Source of the DNA: a virus
Virus record (IMG/VR): IMGVR_UViG_3300035682_000047
Coordinates: 1-54,932 of that record
Strand: one strand, 5' to 3'
DNA length: 54,932 nucleotides
Notes under the pieces: generated by a model
Database searches by the model: none
Seen by the model: only the letters and a program-made list of their open reading frames with translations
What the model was told of the DNA's origin: nothing
In this document: positions 2,494 through 52,837 of the stretch, one piece after another
Layout of the letters: every line of letters begins with the position of its first letter
Numbering within the stretch: position 1 is the stretch's first letter
Made by a program: the position numbers and the translations under genes

Positions 2494-3426
2494 ATGTCTT
2501 TCGATTTTGCCACCTACGCCACCCCTTCCAGCACCGCAGCGCAGGCCCTTAAGGCCGAAGCTGACAGCAAGACCGGCGGCCTTAAGGCGCTGGCCACTGA
2601 CCGCAGCGACCTCTTTCGTCTCAATCCCTACAACATCACGGTCAAAGACGGCTGGAACAGTCGCGACATGCGCGACCCTGACAACCAAGCCCATGTCGAT
2701 GAACTCGCTAAGTCGATTGCGGCTATCGGCGTGCAAGAGCCGCTTACCGTTTACATGGACGGCGGCAAGCCTGTCCTGACTGACGGGCATTGCAGGCTTC
2801 TTGCCGCCCTGCGGGCTATCGAGACTTACGGGGCGGAAATCCGTTCCATCCCTGTCAAGACCGAGCCAAGGGGCAGCGACGAGAAGGACCGTCTGCTTTC
2901 GCAGATTATCCGCAACGGTGGCAAGCGGCTTTCGCCTCTCGAACAGGGGGGAGTATATAAGCGCCTGCTTAATCTCGGCTGGACCGAGGCTGAAATTGCG
3001 CGCAGGACTGGCGCGCAGCAAATCCAAGTGAGTAGGTATATTGATTTGCAGGCGGCGCCTGAGCCGGTTCTTGACCTCGTGGCAACGGGGCAAGTCTCCG
3101 CCACGCTCGCTATTGAGACGATCCAGGAGCGTGGCGACGAACAGGCGGCGGAAATCCTGACGGCGGCAGCCGAGACGGCTAAGGCGCGGGGCAAGAAGAA
3201 GGCCACTGCAAGCACCGTGGCCGAAGTCACAACCGGCGCCAAGCCTGAGCGTAAGAAGCGGGAGAAGGGCGTGCCTCCTCCGTCCCTGCCGCTTTACGAA
3301 GAAATGAAGGCTGTTTTGGATGAACTGCTTTTGCACTTGCCGGAATACGACGAAGAGGCTAATCCTGCCTTTGGGCGTGCCCATCGTCGCGCCATCCATA
3401 CTGTGGCCCTCGTAGAAGGAGATTAA
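2494..3426 (+). CDS. ParB-like DNA-binding protein
   Basis: 310 residues. An N-terminal ParB/sulfiredoxin-type domain is shown by ELAKSIAAIGVQEPLTVY (about 70-87) and the box DGHCRLLAALRA (97-108), the counterpart of the GHRR box that binds CTP in chromosomal ParB. It is followed by a helix-turn-helix (WTEAEIARRTGAQQIQVSRY, about 167-186). The C-terminal third is lysine-rich then acidic. Phage ParB-like proteins can act in plasmid-like partition, transcription control or as nucleases, and the sequence does not separate these. No ParA ATPase is present, which argues against a simple partition pair. ATG 2494 follows AAGGAAC. Confidence 0.75.
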   Translation: MSFDFATYATPSSTAAQALKAEADSKTGGLKALATDRSDLFRLNPYNITVKDGWNSRDMRDPDNQAHVDELAKSIAAIGVQEPLTVYMDGGKPVLTDGHCRLLAALRAIETYGAEIRSIPVKTEPRGSDEKDRLLSQIIRNGGKRLSPLEQGGVYKRLLNLGWTEAEIARRTGAQQIQVSRYIDLQAAPEPVLDLVATGQVSATLAIETIQERGDEQAAEILTAAAETAKARGKKKATASTVAEVTTGAKPERKKREKGVPPPSLPLYEEMKAVLDELLLHLPEYDEEANPAFGRAHRRAIHTVALVEGD

Positions 3427-3427
3427 C

Positions 3428-3640
3428 TTGACCGCCAAGCCCGCAGTCACCATTGCCGACTTCCCCGCATGGGAGAAGCGCACCCAGCACACCCCCGGCC
3501 CCGCCTCCGCGCAACTGCGCGGAGCGCGTAACCGGCGGATCATCTCGACGTTCGAGCGCGATGGCGTCGAATACCAGTTGCACGCTACCAAGGGTATCCG
3601 ACGCATCCGGCGGACATTTTTGCAGGAGTCAAAGCAGTGA
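3428..3640 (+). CDS. Small hypothetical basic protein
   Basis: 70 residues from a TTG start one base after the ParB-like stop, with GAAGGAG of the upstream gene end serving as ribosome site. The C-terminal half is basic (RGARNRRIISTFERDGVEYQ). I recognise no family. Tight spacing on both sides and an overlap (GTGA) with the next gene support it as a real operon member. Confidence 0.5.
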   Translation: MTAKPAVTIADFPAWEKRTQHTPGPASAQLRGARNRRIISTFERDGVEYQLHATKGIRRIRRTFLQESKQ

Positions 3641-3849
3641 TCGACCTCGCCAAGCAAATTAGCGCCACGCAGCATCTGCGCGTAGCCCGTCACAAGATGG
3701 CGCCAGCTTGGCAGGCGGTCCATGATTTCCTTGTGGGGCGGGGCTTCCATACCGCCGCCGGTCACATGGGCGATATCATGCGCCTGACTACCCCCTCGCA
3801 GTTTTGGGCAACGTGGCAGGCGACTGGCCATGACAGCTACAGGGCCTAG
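3637..3849 (+). CDS. Small hypothetical protein
   Basis: 70 residues from a GTG at 3637 that overlaps the preceding stop, with AGGAG nearby upstream. It is histidine and tryptophan rich (HKMAPAWQAVHDFLVGRGFHTAAGHMGDI). No known motif is visible. It is placed between the ParB-like gene and the integrase. Confidence 0.45.
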   Translation: MIDLAKQISATQHLRVARHKMAPAWQAVHDFLVGRGFHTAAGHMGDIMRLTTPSQFWATWQATGHDSYRA

Positions 3850-3851
3850 CC

Positions 3852-4724
3852 GTGATTGAGGACTTCCTGACGGACCTGCGGGCGCGCAACTACAGCCCGC
3901 AGACCTTGCTGGCATACAGCAAGACCCTACAGGCGGCACAGGTGGCGCTTGACCCCACGCCTTTGATTGATGCTAGACCCGCCGATCTGCGGCGCTTCTT
4001 TGCCACTCAGGCACAGAACACAGCCACGACCAAGCTGCGCCACATTGCAGCTATCAAGACCTTCGCCAAGTTTGTAAGGCGCGATCAACCGGCGGCACCC
4101 CTAATCAAAACGGCGGCAACGCTGCAAGGCCCTCGCAGACCTAGGCACTTGCCCAAGGCCCTCAGCACCGACCAGACCGAGGCCCTTATCAGCCTCGCCT
4201 CCCGCCCGGCCCCCGAGCGCGAAGCCTGGAAGGTAGCACGCGACCGTGCGATTATATTGCTTTTGTATGGCGCGGGCCTGCGCTCTGCCGAGGCTCTAAG
4301 CCTACCGGCGGCAGTGGATGTAGACGCGGACGCGATACGTGTCATGGGCAAAGGTAGGCGCGAACGCATAGTGCCGTTGCTGCCAGTTGTGGCGCAGGCT
4401 GTGAACATCTACCGGCGGCTACGCTCGCCCGAGAAATTTCTTTTTGAAGGCTTCTCCGACCGAGACTTGCGCCGTCTTATGCAACGACTTCGCGAGGCTC
4501 TAGGGCTTCCTTCAACTGCTTCGCCTCATAGCCTTCGGCACAGTTTCGCTACCCACATTTACCAAAACGGCGGCGATATCCGAGTCTTGGCAGACCTACT
4601 AGGCCATGCTAGTGTCAGCACAACGGCAATCTACATGGCAACCGACGAGGCGACCTTGCTTGCCGTGGTGCAGCGATGCGCGCCTGAGCGATATGGAAAA
4701 GCTGCGGCTGAGAAGGCCGCTTAG
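3852..4724 (+). CDS. Tyrosine recombinase, XerC-like integrase
   Basis: 290 residues from a GTG start. An N-terminal SAM-like core-binding domain (residues 1-80) precedes the catalytic domain with the expected residues: R144 (GAGLR), K167 (MGKGRR), H226-x-x-R229 (SPHSLRH), H252 (LLGHAS) and nucleophile Y261 (TTAIYM). The short length and the sequence are closer to XerC/XerD than to lambda Int. It would catalyse site-specific integration or dimer resolution, so a temperate life style or use of a host dif-like site is possible. I see no excisionase and no attP core that I can identify. Confidence 0.9.
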   Translation: MIEDFLTDLRARNYSPQTLLAYSKTLQAAQVALDPTPLIDARPADLRRFFATQAQNTATTKLRHIAAIKTFAKFVRRDQPAAPLIKTAATLQGPRRPRHLPKALSTDQTEALISLASRPAPEREAWKVARDRAIILLLYGAGLRSAEALSLPAAVDVDADAIRVMGKGRRERIVPLLPVVAQAVNIYRRLRSPEKFLFEGFSDRDLRRLMQRLREALGLPSTASPHSLRHSFATHIYQNGGDIRVLADLLGHASVSTTAIYMATDEATLLAVVQRCAPERYGKAAAEKAA

Positions 4725-5527: not shown

Positions 5528-6380
5528 CCACTATATCAAAATACACAACCACGGTTTCGTGGGCCTTGTGGACCATATGGGCAGCGACGCTGCCATTGTG
5601 GAAGCGGCACGAGTGTCTTATCAGACCGGCACCAAAGCAACGCGAACTGACCGGGCGCTTATCCGATATCTTATGCGCCATAAGCATACCAGCCCGCTGG
5701 AAATGTGCGAAGTCAAGTTGCACATCCGCGCTCCGATCTTCGTGCTGCGCCAATTACTGCGACATCGTATGGCATCGATTAATGAAGAATCTGGCCGCTA
5801 TAGCGAAATCCGTGAGATGTTTTTCTCCCCTGCTTTGGGCGACCTAGCACCACAGTCGCTAGACAACAAGCAAGGGCGGGAAGGCGAATTTTCGCCGCAC
5901 AAGCAAAAGACTATTCGCAATGTCATTGAGGCAAATAACGAATATTCATTCGCCTCATATAAGGCACTGCTTGGCGAAGACTTGGCGCGGGAGCTTGCCC
6001 GCATCACTATGCCCTTGACGGCATACTCTTCGCTTTACTGGAAGATCGACCTTCATAACCTTTTGCACTTCCTGACGCTGAGGACGGGTAGCCATGCGCA
6101 AAAGGAGATTAGGGACTACGCGGATGCTATTCTCAATATCATCCGGCCCCTGTTCCCTTATGCCGTAGAGGCATGGGAGGACTACCAGCAACAAGCCAAG
6201 ACGCTTTCACGCATGGACCTAGACTTGCTCGCAGCCCTTATCCGGCGGTCAAATATCAAGACTCAGTGGGTTGATATGGTTGAAGAAGCGAGAGGCGAAA
6301 AAGCCTTGGCGGAGAAGTTCGGTATGAGCGGGCGGGATTTGCGGGACTTTGTTCTTTTGTTTGATTTGCCGGATTTCTGA
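5517..6380 (+). CDS. thyX: Flavin-dependent thymidylate synthase
   Basis: 287 residues with the ThyX signature RHRxxSxNExSxRYS at residues 82-96. ThyX converts dUMP to dTMP using FAD, NADPH and methylenetetrahydrofolate. The arginine and serine side chains of this motif bind dUMP and FAD. Full length is somewhat longer than many ThyX proteins, with an extension after residue 230 containing RRSNIKTQWVDMVEEARGEK. The start overlaps the SLOG gene by 11 bases. It works with the dNMP kinase, deaminase and NrdB genes elsewhere in the window to supply dNTPs. Confidence 0.95.
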   Translation: MLPSHYIKIHNHGFVGLVDHMGSDAAIVEAARVSYQTGTKATRTDRALIRYLMRHKHTSPLEMCEVKLHIRAPIFVLRQLLRHRMASINEESGRYSEIREMFFSPALGDLAPQSLDNKQGREGEFSPHKQKTIRNVIEANNEYSFASYKALLGEDLARELARITMPLTAYSSLYWKIDLHNLLHFLTLRTGSHAQKEIRDYADAILNIIRPLFPYAVEAWEDYQQQAKTLSRMDLDLLAALIRRSNIKTQWVDMVEEARGEKALAEKFGMSGRDLRDFVLLFDLPDF

Positions 6381-6408
6381 GGGTAGCGTAAAAGAAAAGG
6401 GGATAGAC

Positions 6409-6753
6409 ATGACTGATAAAAACGACTGTAAGCCGCCGCTGGCATTGCGGGACCGTTATGGCACCCATTGGGTTGTGCGGCGCGATGAAATGCGCGGCGA
6501 TCTGACGCCAATTCTGATGGATTGGAGGATATATAATGGCGTCGGACAATGGTCGTATTCTGAGATTTGCGCCGAATTTGGCTGGCGCTACCTCGCTCCA
6601 GTCACCCCCCACGCGACCGTGGCGGCACTGGTAGAGGCGTTGGACGAATTACTGGCTGATACGCAGCACGCCACGCATGATTGCGGCGACGATGATTGCC
6701 CGGTTCTTCGCGCCCACGCCGCCCTCGCTCTCTACCGGGAGGCGGGGCGATGA
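6409..6753 (+). CDS. Hypothetical phage protein
   Basis: 114 residues from ATG 6409 with AAGGGGATA upstream. The first half has aromatic residues around RYGTHWVVRRDEM and WRIYNGVGQWSYSEI; the second half is an acidic helical tail with HDCGDDDCPV. I do not recognise a family. It is the first of four small genes joined by ATGA overlaps. Confidence 0.5.
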   Translation: MTDKNDCKPPLALRDRYGTHWVVRRDEMRGDLTPILMDWRIYNGVGQWSYSEICAEFGWRYLAPVTPHATVAALVEALDELLADTQHATHDCGDDDCPVLRAHAALALYREAGR

Positions 6754-7010
6754 CTGATTTTGAAAATATGGCCGTCTGCGCCATCCGTTATACCATTGGG
6801 CGCAGAAGTTACGTTGTGGCAGACGGCCATCAGTGGGCAATGGAATGGGGTGCCAAATCAGATTGGGTCCGTGATGTTATTATCCGTGATCTGAAGGAAG
6901 CAACTGAGCAGTGTGATAGTGGGGCCAAAGCACTCGGCGACCCGACCGATGAAGATGGATGGCGTTGGGTGTTATCCGTGCTTCAGGCCATGAAGGAGCC
7001 GGGGCGATGA
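6750..7010 (+). CDS. Hypothetical phage protein
   Basis: 86 residues from ATG 6750 (ATGA overlap, GGCGGGGCG upstream). Visible features are YVVADGHQWAMEWG in the middle and WRWVLSVLQAMKEP at the end. No family is recognised. The longer open frame upstream is out of register with the coupling pattern of the cluster. Confidence 0.5.
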   Translation: MTDFENMAVCAIRYTIGRRSYVVADGHQWAMEWGAKSDWVRDVIIRDLKEATEQCDSGAKALGDPTDEDGWRWVLSVLQAMKEPGR

Positions 7011-7339
7011 GCGTGGTGACGGAGGAGATGCACAATGCTGTTCTCGGCGCCTACATGGTGCGGCTGAATGCGGAGATGCACGCCCGCAGCACTGGCGAAA
7101 TGGATATCCCCAGCCGCGATGATATTGAGTTTATCATCTCTGCTGCTGCCCCGCTAATCGCGGCACGAGAGCGGGAGTTGTGCCTCGCCATCGCGCAGTT
7201 AGAACATGACTGCGCAGCAGAAGATATTGAAATAGCAACTAACATAGACGACGAAACGGGGCGCCTCCAATCGGAGGGCGCCGCACATGCCGCAGCGCGC
7301 ATCACCGCCGCTATCCGCGCGCTAGGAGACGCGACATGA
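7007..7339 (+). CDS. Hypothetical helical phage protein
   Basis: 110 residues from ATG 7007 (ATGA overlap). It looks all helical, with the stretch IAARERELCLAIAQLEHDC and a C-terminal HAAARITAAIRALG. These patterns are frequent in short phage proteins encoded beside Lar-like genes, but I cannot name a family. Confidence 0.5.
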   Translation: MSVVTEEMHNAVLGAYMVRLNAEMHARSTGEMDIPSRDDIEFIISAAAPLIAARERELCLAIAQLEHDCAAEDIEIATNIDDETGRLQSEGAAHAAARITAAIRALGDAT

Positions 7340-7764
7340 GCGTGGAACTGCTGCCGTGCCCGTTCTGTGGTGGGGGTGAAACAAGCATCAGGGAGAACCG
7401 CCATAGCCCGACAATGAGCGGATGCGGCGGGTTAATCAGCGTTGAAATTACTCACTGGTGCCCGGCTGTGCCCGGCCAGCCATCGCGTAACACTATCACA
7501 CGCACGGGCCGCGATCACGCATCTGCCATCGCCGCGTGGAACCGCCGCACTCCGCCGAATGACTGGCAGCCAATCGAGACGGCACCGACTGATGGGACAG
7601 CCGTGCTTTGTTGGCCATTTAATTATTCTAGCCTGTTTGAGGGTAAAGCCGAACCAGAAACTGTTATTGGTTTTTTTTCGGGAGACGATTGGTGGTGTGA
7701 ATCTAATGTTGCAAAAACATTTGAACCAACTCATTGGCGTCCCTTGCCCTCCTCTCCTCAATAA
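7336..7764 (+). CDS. Lar-like zinc ribbon fused to DUF551-like domain
   Basis: 142 residues. The N-terminus LLPCPFCGGG (C8-x2-C11) with a later cysteine in HWCPAV and the ending AIAAWNRR are typical of the Lar restriction-alleviation family. The second half begins DWQPIETAPTDGTAVLCW and ends THWRPLPSSP, the pattern of the DUF551 domain found in many phage proteins. Lar of Rac prophage modulates type I restriction; whether this protein does so is unproven. It is the last of the coupled small-gene cluster and converges with terL, overlapping it by seven bases. Confidence 0.7.
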   Translation: MSVELLPCPFCGGGETSIRENRHSPTMSGCGGLISVEITHWCPAVPGQPSRNTITRTGRDHASAIAAWNRRTPPNDWQPIETAPTDGTAVLCWPFNYSSLFEGKAEPETVIGFFSGDDWWCESNVAKTFEPTHWRPLPSSPQ

Positions 7765-15029: not shown

Positions 15030-15060
15030 AAGCCGGGCAGAAATGCCCGGCTTTTTTTTT
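15030..15060 (+). terminator. Rho-independent terminator after coat gene
   Basis: AAGCCGGGCA-GAAA-TGCCCGGCTT (10-bp stem, GNRA loop) followed by seven further T. On the minus strand a T-rich tail (TTTCTTGTTTT) also follows, so it may also end transcripts arriving from the tRNA side. Confidence 0.92.
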
Positions 15061-15062
15061 GT

Positions 15063-15149
15063 TGGTAGAGGCGGTGGGATTTGAACCCACAATGCCGTGA
15101 GGCCATCAGATTTTGAGTCTGACGCGTATGCCAGTTCCGCCACGCCTCC
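15063..15149 (-). tRNA. tRNA-Leu (CAA)
   Basis: 87 bases. Acceptor stem GGAGGCG with CGCCTCT (first pair G-U), anticodon stem TCAGA/TCTGA enclosing CTCAAAA with anticodon CAA, long variable arm (GGCCTCACGGCA region) as in leucine tRNAs, T arm GTGGG-TTCAAAT-CCCAC, and an encoded CCA at 15065-15063. It reads UUG. Confidence 0.92.
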
Positions 15150-15155
15150 TTAAAA

Positions 15156-15701
15156 CTAACCCCACTGCGCTGCCATCGCCTGTGCAATACCCGTGAAAGT
15201 CTTGGATCGTTCTTTCCACCGATCAGGACTCGGGGGCATCCGATGGACGCGAGCTTCGCGCCCAGATACGATATTAGTCGGAACTAGGTTAGGCAACCCC
15301 TTCAACCACAAGCAAGTTGCTTTTGTTTCTCCGTGCCCGAATTGCCATGGTTGGATAATCTGATTTGGCTTACGAACCCTAGAAGAAATAATGCTAACCG
15401 GGTTCTCCAGAGCGATTCTAGCGATTGGAGCATCTAATAAAGCACGCACAAAGAGAAGGGCTTCTTTCTGTTCTTCTTGCTTCTCTTTGAACCATCTTGC
15501 GCCTGATACAGCTAGATGTGTGCAAGGGGGATGGGCGATCAGCAAATCCCACCCATCCTCTAGGATAGAGAGAACGTCTTGCTGAAAATGTTTTCCAGGG
15601 GTTTCAGTAGGGAGCAAATCACAAGACCACGCGTCATGCCCACGCTCTTTGAACGCGTCCCTTACAACGCCACTAAACTCACATGCTACCAAAACTCGCA
15701 T
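15156..15701 (-). CDS. DNA cytosine methyltransferase-like protein
   Basis: 181 residues from ATG 15701, preceded by AAAGGAAAG; an earlier ATG at 15734 overlaps the deaminase gene. RVLVACEFSGVVRDAF (2-17) is the SAM-binding entry, LLIAHPPCTHLA (53-64) carries the PPC catalytic motif and ALENPV (97-102) the ENV-like motif of C5 methyltransferases. It is much shorter than a classical enzyme and lacks a visible target recognition domain, like many phage versions. Whether it methylates DNA or modifies a cytosine base otherwise is not shown. Confidence 0.7.
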   Translation of the reverse strand: MRVLVACEFSGVVRDAFKERGHDAWSCDLLPTETPGKHFQQDVLSILEDGWDLLIAHPPCTHLAVSGARWFKEKQEEQKEALLFVRALLDAPIARIALENPVSIISSRVRKPNQIIQPWQFGHGETKATCLWLKGLPNLVPTNIVSGREARVHRMPPSPDRWKERSKTFTGIAQAMAAQWG

Positions 15702-15720
15702 CGCTTTCTTTCCTTTTAAG

Positions 15721-16122
15721 TTAAAAGCATTCATATCCCGTTTCGGTGGTATAGAACACCCGCTTTATCCCGAAGTCAGCAATGCACTTAGCGCAACCTA
15801 GACAGGGTTTAGCATTGCCCAAAATAAATTGCTCTCGTTTCGTGCTAGAATACTTGACCCGACACACATACAGGTCTGCTTTCTTCAAGCTGTCTACGTC
15901 CACAACACGCAAAGCATTGAAAATGGCGTTTGTCTCTGCGTGCCAAAAAAGAGATTCAGGGTTTTTCCCGAATTTGGCTTGGAACGGATGCGTCCGCATC
16001 TGGTTAGCACCGAACGATATAATCTCTTTGCCACGCACGATAGCTGCCGTCATACGCGAACTTTTAATCGGAGCTACGTCTACCGCAAGCACACGCAACG
16101 TATTAAAAATATTCTCGTGCAT
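15721..16122 (-). CDS. Cytidine/deoxycytidylate deaminase family protein
   Basis: 133 residues with the zinc site HAE at 61-63 and PCLGC at 106-110. The fold is that of the CDA/dCMP deaminase superfamily. The HAETNAIFNA context and the place beside thymidylate-related genes suggest dCMP deamination to dUMP, the substrate of the ThyX encoded at 5517. A second cysteine (C113) follows the zinc pair. The gene lies between two tRNA genes. Confidence 0.8.
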   Translation of the reverse strand: MHENIFNTLRVLAVDVAPIKSSRMTAAIVRGKEIISFGANQMRTHPFQAKFGKNPESLFWHAETNAIFNALRVVDVDSLKKADLYVCRVKYSSTKREQFILGNAKPCLGCAKCIADFGIKRVFYTTETGYECF

Positions 16123-16142
16123 TTTTTTTGTGCCTTTAGTTT

Positions 16143-16219
16143 TGGTGTAAGCGGCAGGACTCGAACCTGCACCCAGCCTGTTATGAGCAGGCCGCTCTAC
16201 CTAATTAAGCTACGCTTAC
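16143..16219 (-). tRNA. tRNA-Met (CAU), or tRNA-Ile2
   Basis: 77 bases with acceptor GTAAGCG/CGCTTAC, D arm GCTT/GAGC, anticodon stem GCCTG/CAGGC with loop CTCATAA, T arm GCAGG/CCTGC and encoded CCA (16145-16143). The paired 1:72 position argues against an initiator. CAU is read as Met unless the cytidine is lysidine-modified for Ile. The first bases overlap the preceding CDS stop. Confidence 0.9.
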
Positions 16220-16449
16220 TCTTCATCGTCTTCGTCGTCGTCTTCATGCTCGCCGTTTAGCACAGCCATCTTAGCTTGTTCAAAAGCGAACACAAGCTCC
16301 ATGTTGCTGATACCCCCCGCAAAGCACATACCCATGTCGCCGTCATTGTCGAAAAAGACAATGGCGGCCTTGGCAACGCCAATCTCAGCAAGGCGCTCTG
16401 CCTGCGCCATCAACTGCGACCTAGCGACTTCCTGCTTCTTGCGGGGCAT
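16216..16449 (-). CDS. Small hypothetical protein, acidic tail
   Basis: 77 residues: a helical start (QEVARSQLMAQAERLAEIGV), a compact middle (AAIVFFDNDGDMGMCFAGGI) and a strongly acidic end (EHEDDDEDDEE). No family is recognised. Its TAA stop (16218-16216) lies inside the tRNA acceptor stem. Confidence 0.6.
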   Translation of the reverse strand: MPRKKQEVARSQLMAQAERLAEIGVAKAAIVFFDNDGDMGMCFAGGISNMELVFAFEQAKMAVLNGEHEDDDEDDEE

Positions 16450-44988: not shown

Positions 44989-45759
44989 TTAATACAGCGA
45001 AAAAGGCCCTGCTTCAAACGCTTTCTCAATCCGATCTTTTGCGATGGCAAAATATTTGTCGTCAAGTTCGATACCGATGAACTTGCGGCCAAGGTTCATC
45101 GCCGCGACGCCGGTTGTGCCGCTGCCCATGGTGAAGTCGAGAACGGTTTCGTTGGGGTTGGTGTAGGTCTTGATAAGGTATTCCATGAGAGCGACGGGTT
45201 TTTGGGTAGGGTGGACGGCTGCGCCTTCCGACGCAAAACTTAGCACCTGCCTTGGATAACCCGTGTATTCCTGCAGATACTCTTTCTCCGTTATACCGCC
45301 CGTGACTACACTTGTGGCGTCCGTAGTTTTCCCCCTCGCCATATGACTGTCGGAATTCTTTTGAACCTTGCCTAAAAATCGAAGCCCCTGTGGGTTGTAT
45401 GTTGGTTGAGAGGCATAAAAAACCAAAATATCTTCAATATTTTTCATTGGCATCTTTTTTGCATTAAGGTGCCCCGTGGCGCGGGTCTTTTGCCAATACC
45501 ATGAGTATTTGAGATTCGAGACATTTGACGCGCCAAGCACCGACGTAAAAGGCTGGCTCGCCGTCATCACGATAGCGCCATTTTTCTTCGTGATGCACTT
45601 CAACTGCGCCCACATCGGTTCAAACGGGATAACGGAGTCCCACGAACACGCCGTCGTACCATACGGTGGGTCGGCCAATACCATATCCACCGAACCATCC
45701 GGGATTTCCTTCATGCGCTCAAGGCAGTCGCCCTTGAGCAGCGTCAGCACGTCCTTCAT
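44989..45759 (-). CDS. DNA methyltransferase (N6-A or N4-C), beta-class
   Basis: 256 residues from ATG 45759, which overlaps the exonuclease stop (ATGA). Motif IV DPPYG (30-34) precedes the SAM motif VLDFTMGSGTTGVAA and IGIELDDKYF, an order typical of the beta group. It probably protects phage DNA from host restriction. It lies exactly between the two polymerase parts with only nine bases to the pol start. A longer frame upstream exists but overlaps the exonuclease part in another frame. Confidence 0.9.
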   Translation of the reverse strand: MKDVLTLLKGDCLERMKEIPDGSVDMVLADPPYGTTACSWDSVIPFEPMWAQLKCITKKNGAIVMTASQPFTSVLGASNVSNLKYSWYWQKTRATGHLNAKKMPMKNIEDILVFYASQPTYNPQGLRFLGKVQKNSDSHMARGKTTDATSVVTGGITEKEYLQEYTGYPRQVLSFASEGAAVHPTQKPVALMEYLIKTYTNPNETVLDFTMGSGTTGVAAMNLGRKFIGIELDDKYFAIAKDRIEKAFEAGPFSLY

Positions 45760-48656: not shown

Positions 48657-50066
48657 CTAGAGCATGATTTCGCTGATTTGCTTTGACTTGCGTATGATGA
48701 CGCGGGTCAAATCTTCATCAATCGAGCCCGCCAATACCACGTATCTGGCAAGCACGCTAGAACTTTCTTGGCCGATTCGGTGCGCCCGCGCCGCTGCCTG
48801 GACGTTCTCAGCGGGAGTCCACGATGGTTCCATAATCAAAACATTATCGCTTGCCGTCAGAGTAATGGCAGAGTTAGTAGCCGTGATCTGCCCAATAAAT
48901 ACACGGACCTCAGCGTTACCTTGGAAGTCATCAATCGCCTTTTGGCGAGTATTGCGTGCGGTATCCCCCGTAATCACGACAGGGGAAAAGGCTTTGAGCT
49001 TTTCCGCTACTTGCGAAATGACTTCTCGATGATAGCAGAACAGGATAATCTTCTTCGCGCCATTCTCCAATTCTTCTTTGATGAAATCACTTGTCGGCTC
49101 TACTTTCGCAAGCCCGACAGCACGGCGCAGGGATGCAAGCGCTTGCTTATCCGCATTACGAAGAATATCGTCTGATAAGGTGCCATCTTTGTTATGGTGG
49201 TTTGCTGCCGCTGCGGCCAGGACGGCTTTGACTTCTGAGATGGCTTGGGTTTTCTCAAGCGCCATCACTTCCTTGAGCGCGGACTTGGGCGGCTCAAGAA
49301 CAATCGTGCCCCATTGGAGTGCGGGCAACTGCGTCAACACATCTTCTTTCTTACGTCTGATGAAGAAACCATTAATACGTTGGCGCAATTCGCCTGTATT
49401 TTTGTTGCCTTTAATACGCTCAACTGTCCGCATACCAAAATGCAGTATGTCCAAAACGCAAAAGTATTTTACGAATTGAGCATAGGTCATCCGTCCATCT
49501 GGCGTTTGTAGCCGCTCAGAGGCAAGTGCGCGTAGGTGCGTGTATATTTCTGAAGCGTTGTTTGGCAGCGGAGTGCCAGTCAGAATCCATGTGCGTTTGG
49601 TGGCGGCTAGAATGCCGCCTTGGCCGTTAAGCCTTTCGCCATAAACTGCCTTCGTGCGCAGGGCTGTTCGGTTCTTAAGTGCGTGCGCTTCGTCAATGAC
49701 AAGAAGATCAAACTCCATATCGAGGATTTTAGCGCGTAGTGTAGGATTGGCAAGCATATCGTAGCTAACGATAACCACATCTGCTTCAAGTGGAATGTCA
49801 GACTTGATATTTTTAATCACGAAAGTTGTTCGTGGAATTATCTGCCAATTCAGCATTTCGCGCTGCCAGTTGATCCGCGCCACGGCAGGACAAACGACTA
49901 GGATGCGGCGCAGATTAAGGGCATCCGCCGCCCTGATCGCCTGCGCCGTTTTGCCAAGCCCCATGTCGTCAAAAAGACCGGCATTGGAGTTGTCGGTCTT
50001 TTTGGCGACAAGGAAGTTGACGCCTTCAATCTGGTAGGGGAGAAGGCCGTCTTGCCAGTTAGGCAT
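48657..50066 (-). CDS. SNF2-family DNA helicase
   Basis: 469 residues. Motif I DMGLGKT (34-40), II DEAH (125-128), III LTGTPLPNN, and VI QAAARAHRIGQE (near 430). The start MPNWQDGLLPYQIEG opens with the Q-motif of SNF2 helicases. Phage SNF2-like helicases probably remodel forks or displace proteins. The first 17 bases are duplicated 631 bases upstream. The start overlaps the methyltransferase stop (TAATG). Confidence 0.92.
   Translation of the reverse strand: MPNWQDGLLPYQIEGVNFLVAKKTDNSNAGLFDDMGLGKTAQAIRAADALNLRRILVVCPAVARINWQREMLNWQIIPRTTFVIKNIKSDIPLEADVVIVSYDMLANPTLRAKILDMEFDLLVIDEAHALKNRTALRTKAVYGERLNGQGGILAATKRTWILTGTPLPNNASEIYTHLRALASERLQTPDGRMTYAQFVKYFCVLDILHFGMRTVERIKGNKNTGELRQRINGFFIRRKKEDVLTQLPALQWGTIVLEPPKSALKEVMALEKTQAISEVKAVLAAAAANHHNKDGTLSDDILRNADKQALASLRRAVGLAKVEPTSDFIKEELENGAKKIILFCYHREVISQVAEKLKAFSPVVITGDTARNTRQKAIDDFQGNAEVRVFIGQITATNSAITLTASDNVLIMEPSWTPAENVQAAARAHRIGQESSSVLARYVVLAGSIDEDLTRVIIRKSKQISEIML
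50050..50066. repeat. 17-bp direct repeat, copy 1
   Basis: TCTTGCCAGTTAGGCAT, the first 17 bases of the helicase gene on the other strand. An identical copy is at 50681-50697, so the two flank the methyltransferase gene. Confidence 0.9.
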
Positions 50067-50635
50067 TATCGCCGCCTAAAGATGACGATGACACGAAAAC
50101 GGTGGTTTGTCGATTTTACCATACCAATTACCGCTTCGACTTCCCATTCGTCTTTACGATACATAGGTAGAACTTGGTCTAGCCATACAACGTGGGTTCC
50201 TGATTGGCACCTAGCTAACGCTTTCAATACCACATTGCGCTTAATCATGCTGGTTTTATAGTGGTCGCAATCCTCGACGCTATATGGAGGGTCAGCAAGT
50301 ATAATATCATATTGTTCTAGCGGAACGTTCTCTAGTCGTTGAGCATCATCTACATACGTAGGTTGCAGTTCGGGATTCAAATCCACAGTGTCGCCGGGAA
50401 AAATAGACAAGTCTACTTTCCCAGAAAACAAGTGTAGGGTCTTATTTTTTTCCGGGAATAGCGCTTTGATGCGCTTCAAATACCCCGCTGGATATCCCCC
50501 GTAGTATGCGCTCTTAACCCGGTAATCATTCCCCATGATCCAAGTCCCTACAACCCGCCCGTCTTCTGACTGGAATAGGGATTTGGGGAACCCGGTTTGT
50601 TTAGTGTATTTAGAGATTCGGTCAGACCAGTTCAT
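50066..50635 (-). CDS. DNA adenine methyltransferase-like protein, inserted cassette
   Basis: 189 residues. LHLFSGKVDLSIFPGDTVDL (about 67-86) is a SAM-binding entry and ILADPPYSVEDCDHY the catalytic DPPY motif (about 117-131). The rest is short and lacks a target domain. The gene is in a 631-base segment flanked by 17-bp direct repeats, so it looks like a recent insertion. Its stop overlaps the helicase start (TAATG). Confidence 0.75.
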   Translation of the reverse strand: MNWSDRISKYTKQTGFPKSLFQSEDGRVVGTWIMGNDYRVKSAYYGGYPAGYLKRIKALFPEKNKTLHLFSGKVDLSIFPGDTVDLNPELQPTYVDDAQRLENVPLEQYDIILADPPYSVEDCDHYKTSMIKRNVVLKALARCQSGTHVVWLDQVLPMYRKDEWEVEAVIGMVKSTNHRFRVIVIFRRR

Positions 50636-50667
50636 TCTACTGCTTCTTTCGTAGTGTGTTTTTGTCT

Positions 50668-50697
50668 TTAGCGAGGGTCTTCTTGCCAGTTAGGCAT
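50668..50697 (-). pseudogene. Vestigial helicase start
   Basis: The copy of the helicase start reads MPNWQEDPR then TAA. It overlaps the stop of the D12 methyltransferase gene by one base (TGATG). I read it as the left-over 5' end of the helicase gene after the cassette went in. Confidence 0.6.
50681..50697. repeat. 17-bp direct repeat, copy 2
   Basis: Identical to 50050-50066. It lies at the junction between the D12 methyltransferase stop and the inserted methyltransferase cassette. Confidence 0.9.
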
Positions 50698-51407
50698 CAA
50701 TCCAACTCATGTTCATAGGTGACTTCGGCGCTGACGCCTTTTCTTTTTCTTCCTGCCGTTGCTTTAACGTGCATTACATTCGAAAATGGAAGCCAATCTG
50801 CGCCCTCGTTTTCACACACGATGACGTGGCCTCTTATCCCCCGACACCATGCGCCAAGGTGGTTGTAATCAATCCCACTACTGGGGTGTCGGTAAAACTT
50901 TCCTGCTCCGATATATGGCGGGTCAATATACCAAGTTGCTTTGCCATTTAGGATGAGATTTGAATAACTCAGATTAAACACCTTCCAATGCCTGATATGC
51001 TGTTGTTGACTTGCAATTCTGTTTTTTATTGTGGTGCCCCAAAAAGAATTAGTGTGCGTCCCTTTACGCATCCACGAGCTTGGAGTCTTGCACGGCGACG
51101 CCGCGCCTTTATTTAACCAAAACCCAATCAACCATTTGGCTTCTTGCGAAATATGCAATTCGTCAACATGCGCCACCTGTTCTGGCAGCGCCAAAATTTC
51201 AGATGATGGCGCGTGAATGAGATAATCCCACACGCCGCAAATGATTTCGTCTTTGTCATTTAGCCGCACACGCCGGTCTGCATATCGTAGCGAGTATCCT
51301 GCGCTTCCCGCGAATGGTTCTACGATTGTATCGTATTTTGGCGCTGGATAGTGTGGCGCGGCGCGCCACTTACCACCATAGTATGAGAAGAAAGGCTTCA
51401 GGTTCAT
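50697..51407 (-). CDS. D12-class DNA adenine methyltransferase
   Basis: 236 residues. PFFSYYGGKWRAAPHYPAP (5-23), IVEPFAGSAGYSLRY (31-45; SAM motif) and YIDPPYIGAGKFYRH (160-174; catalytic) match Dam-like (D12) enzymes. The C-terminal RKRKGVSAEVTYEHE is also usual. It would methylate adenine in a short target. It is 6 bases after the RuvC-like gene and overlaps the vestigial helicase start. Confidence 0.85.
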   Translation of the reverse strand: MNLKPFFSYYGGKWRAAPHYPAPKYDTIVEPFAGSAGYSLRYADRRVRLNDKDEIICGVWDYLIHAPSSEILALPEQVAHVDELHISQEAKWLIGFWLNKGAASPCKTPSSWMRKGTHTNSFWGTTIKNRIASQQQHIRHWKVFNLSYSNLILNGKATWYIDPPYIGAGKFYRHPSSGIDYNHLGAWCRGIRGHVIVCENEGADWLPFSNVMHVKATAGRKRKGVSAEVTYEHELD

Positions 51408-51413
51408 TTTACT

Positions 51414-51896
51414 CTACCCTATTGTGATTCCGTAATAGGCCAGCAACGCACTCTCCGCCCTACCATCGTCCTTCACGCGCTTGAACAAATCTACCCTATC
51501 GGGGAACAACGCCATCGCCTTCAAGCGCGCTCCTCCCTTGTCAGCAGGAATGTTCATGCGCCGCTTCCACGTTGCAGGGTGGACGAGCGTAGTAGGGATT
51601 TGAAGTGCCGCCAAGACCCCTTCGATCTGTCCAAGATTGCGCCCAAAAGAGAAAGCGCCGACAGCGCCTTCTCCCGGTCGAACGCCAACACTTTCAAGGA
51701 ATGCCTTCTGTGGTGCCATGTTTTTTATCATAGCCGCGAGTGCCGCAGGGGGCACGCTCCTGCGCTTCTTACCGTTAACGACGACTTCGATAGTTGGCAT
51801 GTCCTCGATAGCAAGAACTTTACCGTTTTGGTCAAGCAGGGCCAAAGCCCCGCTTAGACCTGGGTCGATGCCAAGGATCAAAATACGTCGCCCCAC
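51414..51896 (-). CDS. RuvC-like Holliday junction resolvase
   Basis: 160 residues from a GTG overlapping the end of nrdB by 19 bases (AAGGGTGA upstream). GIDPGLSGAL (9-18, with D11), FLES (E68) and KDDGRAESALLAYY (142-155) form the RNase H-fold active site. It would resolve branched DNA before packaging. Confidence 0.85.
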   Translation of the reverse strand: MGRRILILGIDPGLSGALALLDQNGKVLAIEDMPTIEVVVNGKKRRSVPPAALAAMIKNMAPQKAFLESVGVRPGEGAVGAFSFGRNLGQIEGVLAALQIPTTLVHPATWKRRMNIPADKGGARLKAMALFPDRVDLFKRVKDDGRAESALLAYYGITIG

Positions 51897-52837
51897 TCAC
51901 CCTTGGTCGCCGCCTTGCTATACTCAGTGGCGCGGTTCTCGAAGAAGTTGGTATGCTCTGGCGCATTCAGCAACTCATCAAGCCAAGGTAGGGGGTTGTC
52001 CTTGACCTTGTAGACGGGCACCATACGCAACTGAAGAAGGCGCCTATCTGCGATGAAGCGGATATACTGCTTGATTTCATCCGCCGTCATGCCCTGCACG
52101 GGGCCTAGAGCAAACGCCAAGTCAATGAACGCATCTTCATGCTCTACGATAGTCTTGCAGATTTCGTAGATTTCAGCCTTGAGCGAGTCGTCAAAGAGAC
52201 TTGGGTTTTCCGCGCAATAGGTGTGGAAAAGCCGGATGATATTCTCACAGTGTAGCGTCTCGTCACGGACGGACCAAGCAATGATCTGCCCCATGCCTTT
52301 CATCTTCCCGAAGCGAGGGAAGTTGAGGAGCATGGCAAAAGACGCAAAAAGCTGTAGCCCTTCAGTAAAGGCTCCAAAGGCTGCAAGCGTTTTAGCTACC
52401 TCTCGCGGATTATCCGTTGAGAAGCTGCTAAAGTAGTCATACTTGTCACGCATCTCCTTAATCTGCATGAAAGTAGTATATTCGCTTTCAGGCATACCAA
52501 CCGTGTCAAGGAGATGCGAATAAGAAACTACGTGCGTCGTTTCGCTATTCGCAAACGCCGTCAACATCATAACCACTTCAGTCGGCTTGAAGATGGGCAG
52601 GTAGTTGTGGACATAGTTCTCCGCCACGGAAGCGTCAGCTTGCGTGAAGAAGCGGAAAATCTGTGTCAGCAGATTCTTTTCAGAAGGTTCTAGGCGCTTC
52701 TGCCAATCCCGCACATCGTCAGCCAAAGGCACTTCCTCGGGAAGCCAATGGATACGCTGCTGCTGAAGCCAAGCGTCATAGGCCCATGGATAGCGGAAAG
52801 GCTTGTAGCCGATGGACGGAGTGGTGAGGCTTGTCAT
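51878..52837 (-). CDS. nrdB: Ribonucleotide reductase, small subunit (class Ia)
   Basis: 319 residues from ATG 52837 with AAAGGG upstream. Metal ligands and radical Tyr are present: D in TQADASV, ETTHVVSY (E, H, then Tyr radical), E in FTEGLQLF and DETLH (E, H). The protein makes the tyrosyl radical used to reduce ribonucleotides. No large subunit is in the window; it may lie outside or the subunit may join the host NrdA. The start sits near a promoter candidate at 52862. Confidence 0.92.
   Translation of the reverse strand: MTSLTTPSIGYKPFRYPWAYDAWLQQQRIHWLPEEVPLADDVRDWQKRLEPSEKNLLTQIFRFFTQADASVAENYVHNYLPIFKPTEVVMMLTAFANSETTHVVSYSHLLDTVGMPESEYTTFMQIKEMRDKYDYFSSFSTDNPREVAKTLAAFGAFTEGLQLFASFAMLLNFPRFGKMKGMGQIIAWSVRDETLHCENIIRLFHTYCAENPSLFDDSLKAEIYEICKTIVEHEDAFIDLAFALGPVQGMTADEIKQYIRFIADRRLLQLRMVPVYKVKDNPLPWLDELLNAPEHTNFFENRATEYSKAATKGEWGDVF

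Follow-up and report, generated by a model that had tools for sequence, protein, structure and literature searches.

Probable gain of a DNA methyltransferase gene with duplication of an 18-bp stretch at the resolvase/helicase overlap in a phage genome

Genes and repeats at the locus

The window analysed is the whole stretch of 54,932 nt, positions 1-54,932 of the IMG/VR virus record IMGVR_UViG_3300035682_000047. On its minus strand, a RuvC-like resolvase gene is followed by a D12-class methyltransferase gene (D12), a dead helicase start, a second methyltransferase gene (MT) and an intact SNF2-type helicase gene. Positions and supporting matches are detailed in Table 1.

The match of MT to phrog_3816 (E = 5.6e-44, residues 12-189) was a full-length profile match. 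The DPPY motif is invariant among 21 MT sequences, and MT retains the invariant residues of the family. An AlphaFold2 model of the protein (pLDDT 85.5) matched SAM-dependent methyltransferases of the PDB in Foldseek, with modest TM-scores of about 0.5, and the predicted fold is the Rossmann methyltransferase fold. By profile and model, MT is assigned to the phrog_3816 DNA methyltransferases, with predicted methyltransferase activity. The match of D12 to PF02086 was weak yet over the cutoff (33.9 vs 22 bits). Besides MT, the methyltransferase genes of the window are D12, a CcrM-like gene (44989-45759) and a phrog_757 gene (15156-15734).

Table 1. Features of the resolvase/helicase locus in the window. 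L005 is the relative with MT and without D12.
Feature	Position	Strand	Basis
SNF2-type helicase (phrog_62), intact, live start	48657..50066	-	PF00176 5.8e-29, phrog_62
Live 17-bp repeat copy, first 17 nt of the helicase gene	50050..50066	-	exact match
Inserted DNA methyltransferase (MT), 189 aa, DPPY motif	50066..50635	-	phrog_3816
Repeat period of 631 bp (inserted cassette and a single target copy)	50067..50697	-	repeat spacing; L005-vs-empty alignments
9-codon leader ORF of the dead helicase start, MPNWQEDPR*	50668..50697	-	reading frame; MPNRQEDPR* in L005
Dead (outer) repeat copy	50681..50697	-	exact match
D12-class N6-adenine DNA methyltransferase	50697..51407	-	PF02086 3.6e-8
Replaced RuvC C-terminal tail, left junction of the D12 acquisition	51414..51429	-	...YGITIG* vs ...YGLSNA*
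RuvC-like Holliday junction resolvase	51414..51896	-	phrog_1770 1.4e-36; adjoins helicase in eight empty relatives

An earlier note on this DNA had described a repeat in two exact copies, a dead helicase start overlapped by the D12 stop, and an inserted gene ending on the true helicase start, and all three readings were confirmed. The sequence TCTTGCCAGTTAGGCAT is present exactly at both positions, 631 bp apart, and no third copy was detected in the window with up to 3 mismatches allowed. By chance, 0.11 copies of the 17-mer are expected from shuffles, none of which reached 2 copies. The dead copy is read on the minus strand as ATG CCT AAC TGG CAA GAA GAC CCT CGC TAA (MPNWQEDPR*), its ATG being overlapped by the TGA of D12 (TGATG). 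The TAA of MT overlaps the ATG of the live helicase (TAATG).

Allele states in related phages

A helicase scan retrieved 12 relatives of the window helicase, with identities of 62-99%. A wider helicase profile scan of viral contigs and bacterial genomes yielded no further close relatives, and a DNA search against annotated phages gave no match.

Eight relatives carry an empty allele, with neither MT nor D12: L003, L004, L006 and L010 (98-99%), L007 and L008 (95%), and L009 and L011 (83%). In 8/8 of them (83-99%) the RuvC stop lies within the helicase start, as ATGCCTAAC or ATGCCTGAT, with an 8-nt overlap, and the repeat site is single-copy, as helicase coding sequence; the single copy of L003, L004 and L010 is identical to the live copy of the window. 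L012 (62%) is also empty, with a short gap at the site. L005 (98%) has MT only, in the order resolvase, dead start, MT, live start; the end of its resolvase protein is unchanged (YGLSNA*), and its equivalent of the dead copy still gives the RuvC stop codon (TAA in ATGCCTAAC). The window is the allele with both genes. These alleles bear out the claim of a gene gain that duplicated its target, since eight relatives are empty and single-copy and L005 has MT alone with both copies.

A precise 631-bp absence, with the D12 stop directly on the helicase ATG, had also been anticipated and was not found in the close lineage, where D12 was absent from 9/9 close relatives. The order RuvC-D12-helicase was found only in L013 and L014 (63%), which have D12 alone, and the overlap differs there, D12 (61%) extending 17 nt into the helicase start. 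Neither MT nor D12 was found elsewhere in the records of the empty relatives, several of which are fragments.

For the window resolvase and helicase, identity to L003-type phages is 97-98%. Recombination is frequent among phages of this group, because the reductase of the window (51878-52837) is 98% identical to that of L007 and the resolvase and helicase (48657-51881) are L003-like, with a breakpoint near 51,900.

L005 aligned with the empty alleles G001, G002 and G008 with a net gap of 613 bp and an overlap of 18 bp, and with four other empty alleles with gaps of 614-616 bp and overlaps of 15-17 bp. By the L005 comparison the duplication is 18 bp long, AATGCCTAACTGGCAAGA being present twice in L005 with one mismatch in the dead copy; in the window, the D12 junction has replaced the 18th base. 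The duplicated segment contains the resolvase stop plus the helicase start, and for this reason both genes stay readable. Of the 10 nt beyond the 18 bp, 6 agree between the dead and live copies (P about 0.03); the duplication may thus once have been longer, or may have come from a diverged helicase start.

Origin of the methyltransferase cassette

MT reads as a gain and the empty state as ancestral, because the 83% outgroups L009 and L011 are without MT; it is likewise lacking in L007, L008 and L012 (62%). Between the window and L005, cassette identity is 97.9% (MT itself 97.9% in amino acids and 98.2% in nucleotides) and the flanks are similar, at 96-98%. A single gain is consistent with both cassettes, since their divergence resembles that of the flanks. 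A one-off misassembly was considered and is opposed by L005, a contig from a different metagenome with the same junctions.

D12 is a separate acquisition, made without target duplication. Compared with L005, 732 bp replace 8 bp in the window, with no flanking repeat, and the resolvase ends in YGITIG* instead of YGLSNA*. Because D12 replaced the resolvase tail and brought no repeat, the junction of its stop with the dead ATG is read as secondary. The earlier note had held that both couplings were kept; this stands insofar as the neighbours stay readable and fails for D12, which is missing from the nine close relatives, the original upstream partner being RuvC. The most likely order is MT first and D12 second, a shorter history given that the window and L005 share the MT junctions; this order rests on parsimony, as just two sequences carry the cassette. 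An earlier D12, followed by recombination within the 18 bp, is less parsimonious.

The allele states, junctions, duplication length and outgroup polarity are read directly from the sequences. Gain of MT by illegitimate recombination that duplicated 18 bp at the resolvase/helicase overlap, with D12 gained later, is the best explanation of the whole and is considered probable. Ancestrally, the resolvase gene would have been followed directly by the helicase gene with an 8-nt overlap, the resolvase stop lying inside ATGCCTAAC. A foreign methyltransferase gene with a leader of about 45 bp would have been placed at this overlap, presumably by template switching during phage replication or repair. 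Copying would have proceeded 18 bp into the helicase start, switched to the donor and, past the MT stop, resumed upstream of the 18 bp, leaving the overlap present twice. The upstream copy would then terminate the resolvase gene and open a useless 9-codon frame, and the downstream copy would be the working helicase start, overlapped by the MT stop, with translational coupling likely at such stop/start overlaps. In the window lineage, D12 would most likely have arrived afterwards, replacing the resolvase tail and overlapping the dead start by chance.

The likely benefit is methylation of the phage DNA against host restriction, a role suggested by family membership and by the three further methyltransferase genes of the window. 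Apart from leaving both neighbours intact, the duplication probably serves no function, and recombination between its copies would permit clean loss of the cassette. A donor search with the MT leader sequence found only L005, and of the 46 MT relatives from viral contigs none shared the context, the closest apart from L005 being 77% identical; as no donor with MT plus leader was found, the junction with donor DNA is neither datable nor provable.

A single crossover would offer a different route, in which the donor already had MT before its own helicase and an illegitimate crossover joined the recipient helicase start to the donor MT leader. In L108 and L109, MT-family genes do immediately precede SNF2-type helicases, though distant ones (27%), and the tail after the 18 bp weakly resembles a diverged helicase start. 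The live helicase start with the next 300 nt is 97-98% identical to the empty relatives, however, which marks the flanks as native, and the MT relatives included no MT-helicase donor of this lineage, so this route is judged unlikely. A mobile element with a true target-site duplication, made when an element-encoded or trans-acting enzyme cuts with a stagger and the ends are filled in, would produce 18-bp repeats as clean as those flanking the insert, and the replication module of relatives has probable inteins and an HNH-like gene. The insert nevertheless encodes the methyltransferase alone, with no transposase, the inserted DNA lacks terminal inverted repeats, and the cassette is known from one site only. 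A transposase would give a fixed duplication length. At other insertion sites of these phages where the junctions are clean, the duplicated length is 11, 10, 5 or 0 bp, or 6-14 bp are replaced, and such variation favours illegitimate recombination over a transposase. A mobile element is accordingly given very little probability, the features of a transposable element (transposase or terminal repeats, constant duplication length at several sites) being absent.

The earlier note had also named a conserved regulatory element as an alternative, here taken as a 9-codon leader peptide controlling the methyltransferase. The frame is open in both alleles (MPNWQEDPR and MPNRQEDPR) and begins at a stop/start overlap. 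Against it, the empty relatives hold one copy, as helicase coding sequence, and no extra RNA structure was detected at the dead start (z = -0.33). The dead-start leader moreover differs at 4/62 positions, vs 10/570 in MT (Fisher P = 0.04), which suggests weaker constraint on the leader than on MT. Such an element is regarded as extremely improbable, and illegitimate recombination remains the preferred origin of the repeat.

Comparison with known systems and other insertions in the group

In a literature search for duplication at gene overlaps no specific description was found, mycobacteriophages LRRHood and Island3 being close precedents. In LRRHood, a 1.35-kb insertion (genes 43-46) is bordered by 29-bp direct repeats, of which relatives have a single copy (Pope et al. 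2011, PMC3029335). As there, the additional DNA here is enclosed by direct repeats, near relatives without the insert having one copy only, and one repeat copy lies at the end of a neighbouring gene. The repeat is 18 bp rather than 29 bp, it spans a stop/start overlap, one methyltransferase takes the place of four genes including a repressor, and divergent outgroups give the polarity, with the empty state ancestral. At Island3 gene 68, the repeat is about 50 bp and corresponds to the 3' end of the upstream gene (PMC3029335); both cases have a gene gained or lost via a short repeat duplicating coding sequence of a neighbour, but here the duplicated part is a start with the upstream stop inside it. 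Illegitimate recombination or short boundary sequences have been invoked for phage morons and for mosaic junctions located at gene boundaries (PMC3029335). Like these, MT sits in a genome whose near relatives lack it, and its junctions fall at gene boundaries; a point of difference is that its cassette is joined to the operon by a stop/start overlap.

The gain of MT with target duplication is of the same kind as the LRRHood and Island3 cases, a well-resolved example, ordinary in type and useful. A single overlapping gene pair here offers an unusually complete allele set (empty, MT only, D12 only, both), and by duplicating the bases of the upstream stop and downstream start a gene was added in an overlapping operon with a path for clean loss built in. 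That the overlap is a recurrent landing site for methyltransferases, kept because short stop/start duplications spare the neighbours on entry and exit, is a doubtful proposal; if true, overlapping phage operons would have in it a general way to take in new genes.

Methyltransferases turn over at several gene junctions within this one phage lineage. A CcrM-like N6/N4 methyltransferase cassette lies between the pieces of a split family-A DNA polymerase (window 44989-45759, minus strand); the locus was also noted in L011 (8330-9028) and L158 (around 16062-16400). Relatives either have an empty site or hold the same gene with a different central (target-recognition) part.

Further insertions were observed in the group. 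About 900 bp in the polymerase gene of L158 (13990-14889; also L168 and L171) are intein-like, with a Cys start and His-Asn end, and are lacking in the window. In L013 and L014 (about 2963-4000), the Walker A motif of the helicase is interrupted around residue 40 by an intein-like insertion that shows endonuclease features. In L011 (1910-2878), an insertion of about 976 bp, probably an intron or intein, lies at residue 98/99 of the gene for the ribonucleotide reductase small subunit. In L161 (6626-7342), the 3' end of a tRNA-Leu is the insertion site of a terminase-large-subunit-like gene (phrog_2, 247 aa), with an 11-bp repeat; the gene is absent from the window (site 15055-15065). A segment of 1381 bp with several small genes (window 6379-7759) is cleanly absent from L157, with a 0-bp junction. 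The window also contains tandem repeats at 1-220 and 2086-2330, their periods being about 27 and 24 bp.
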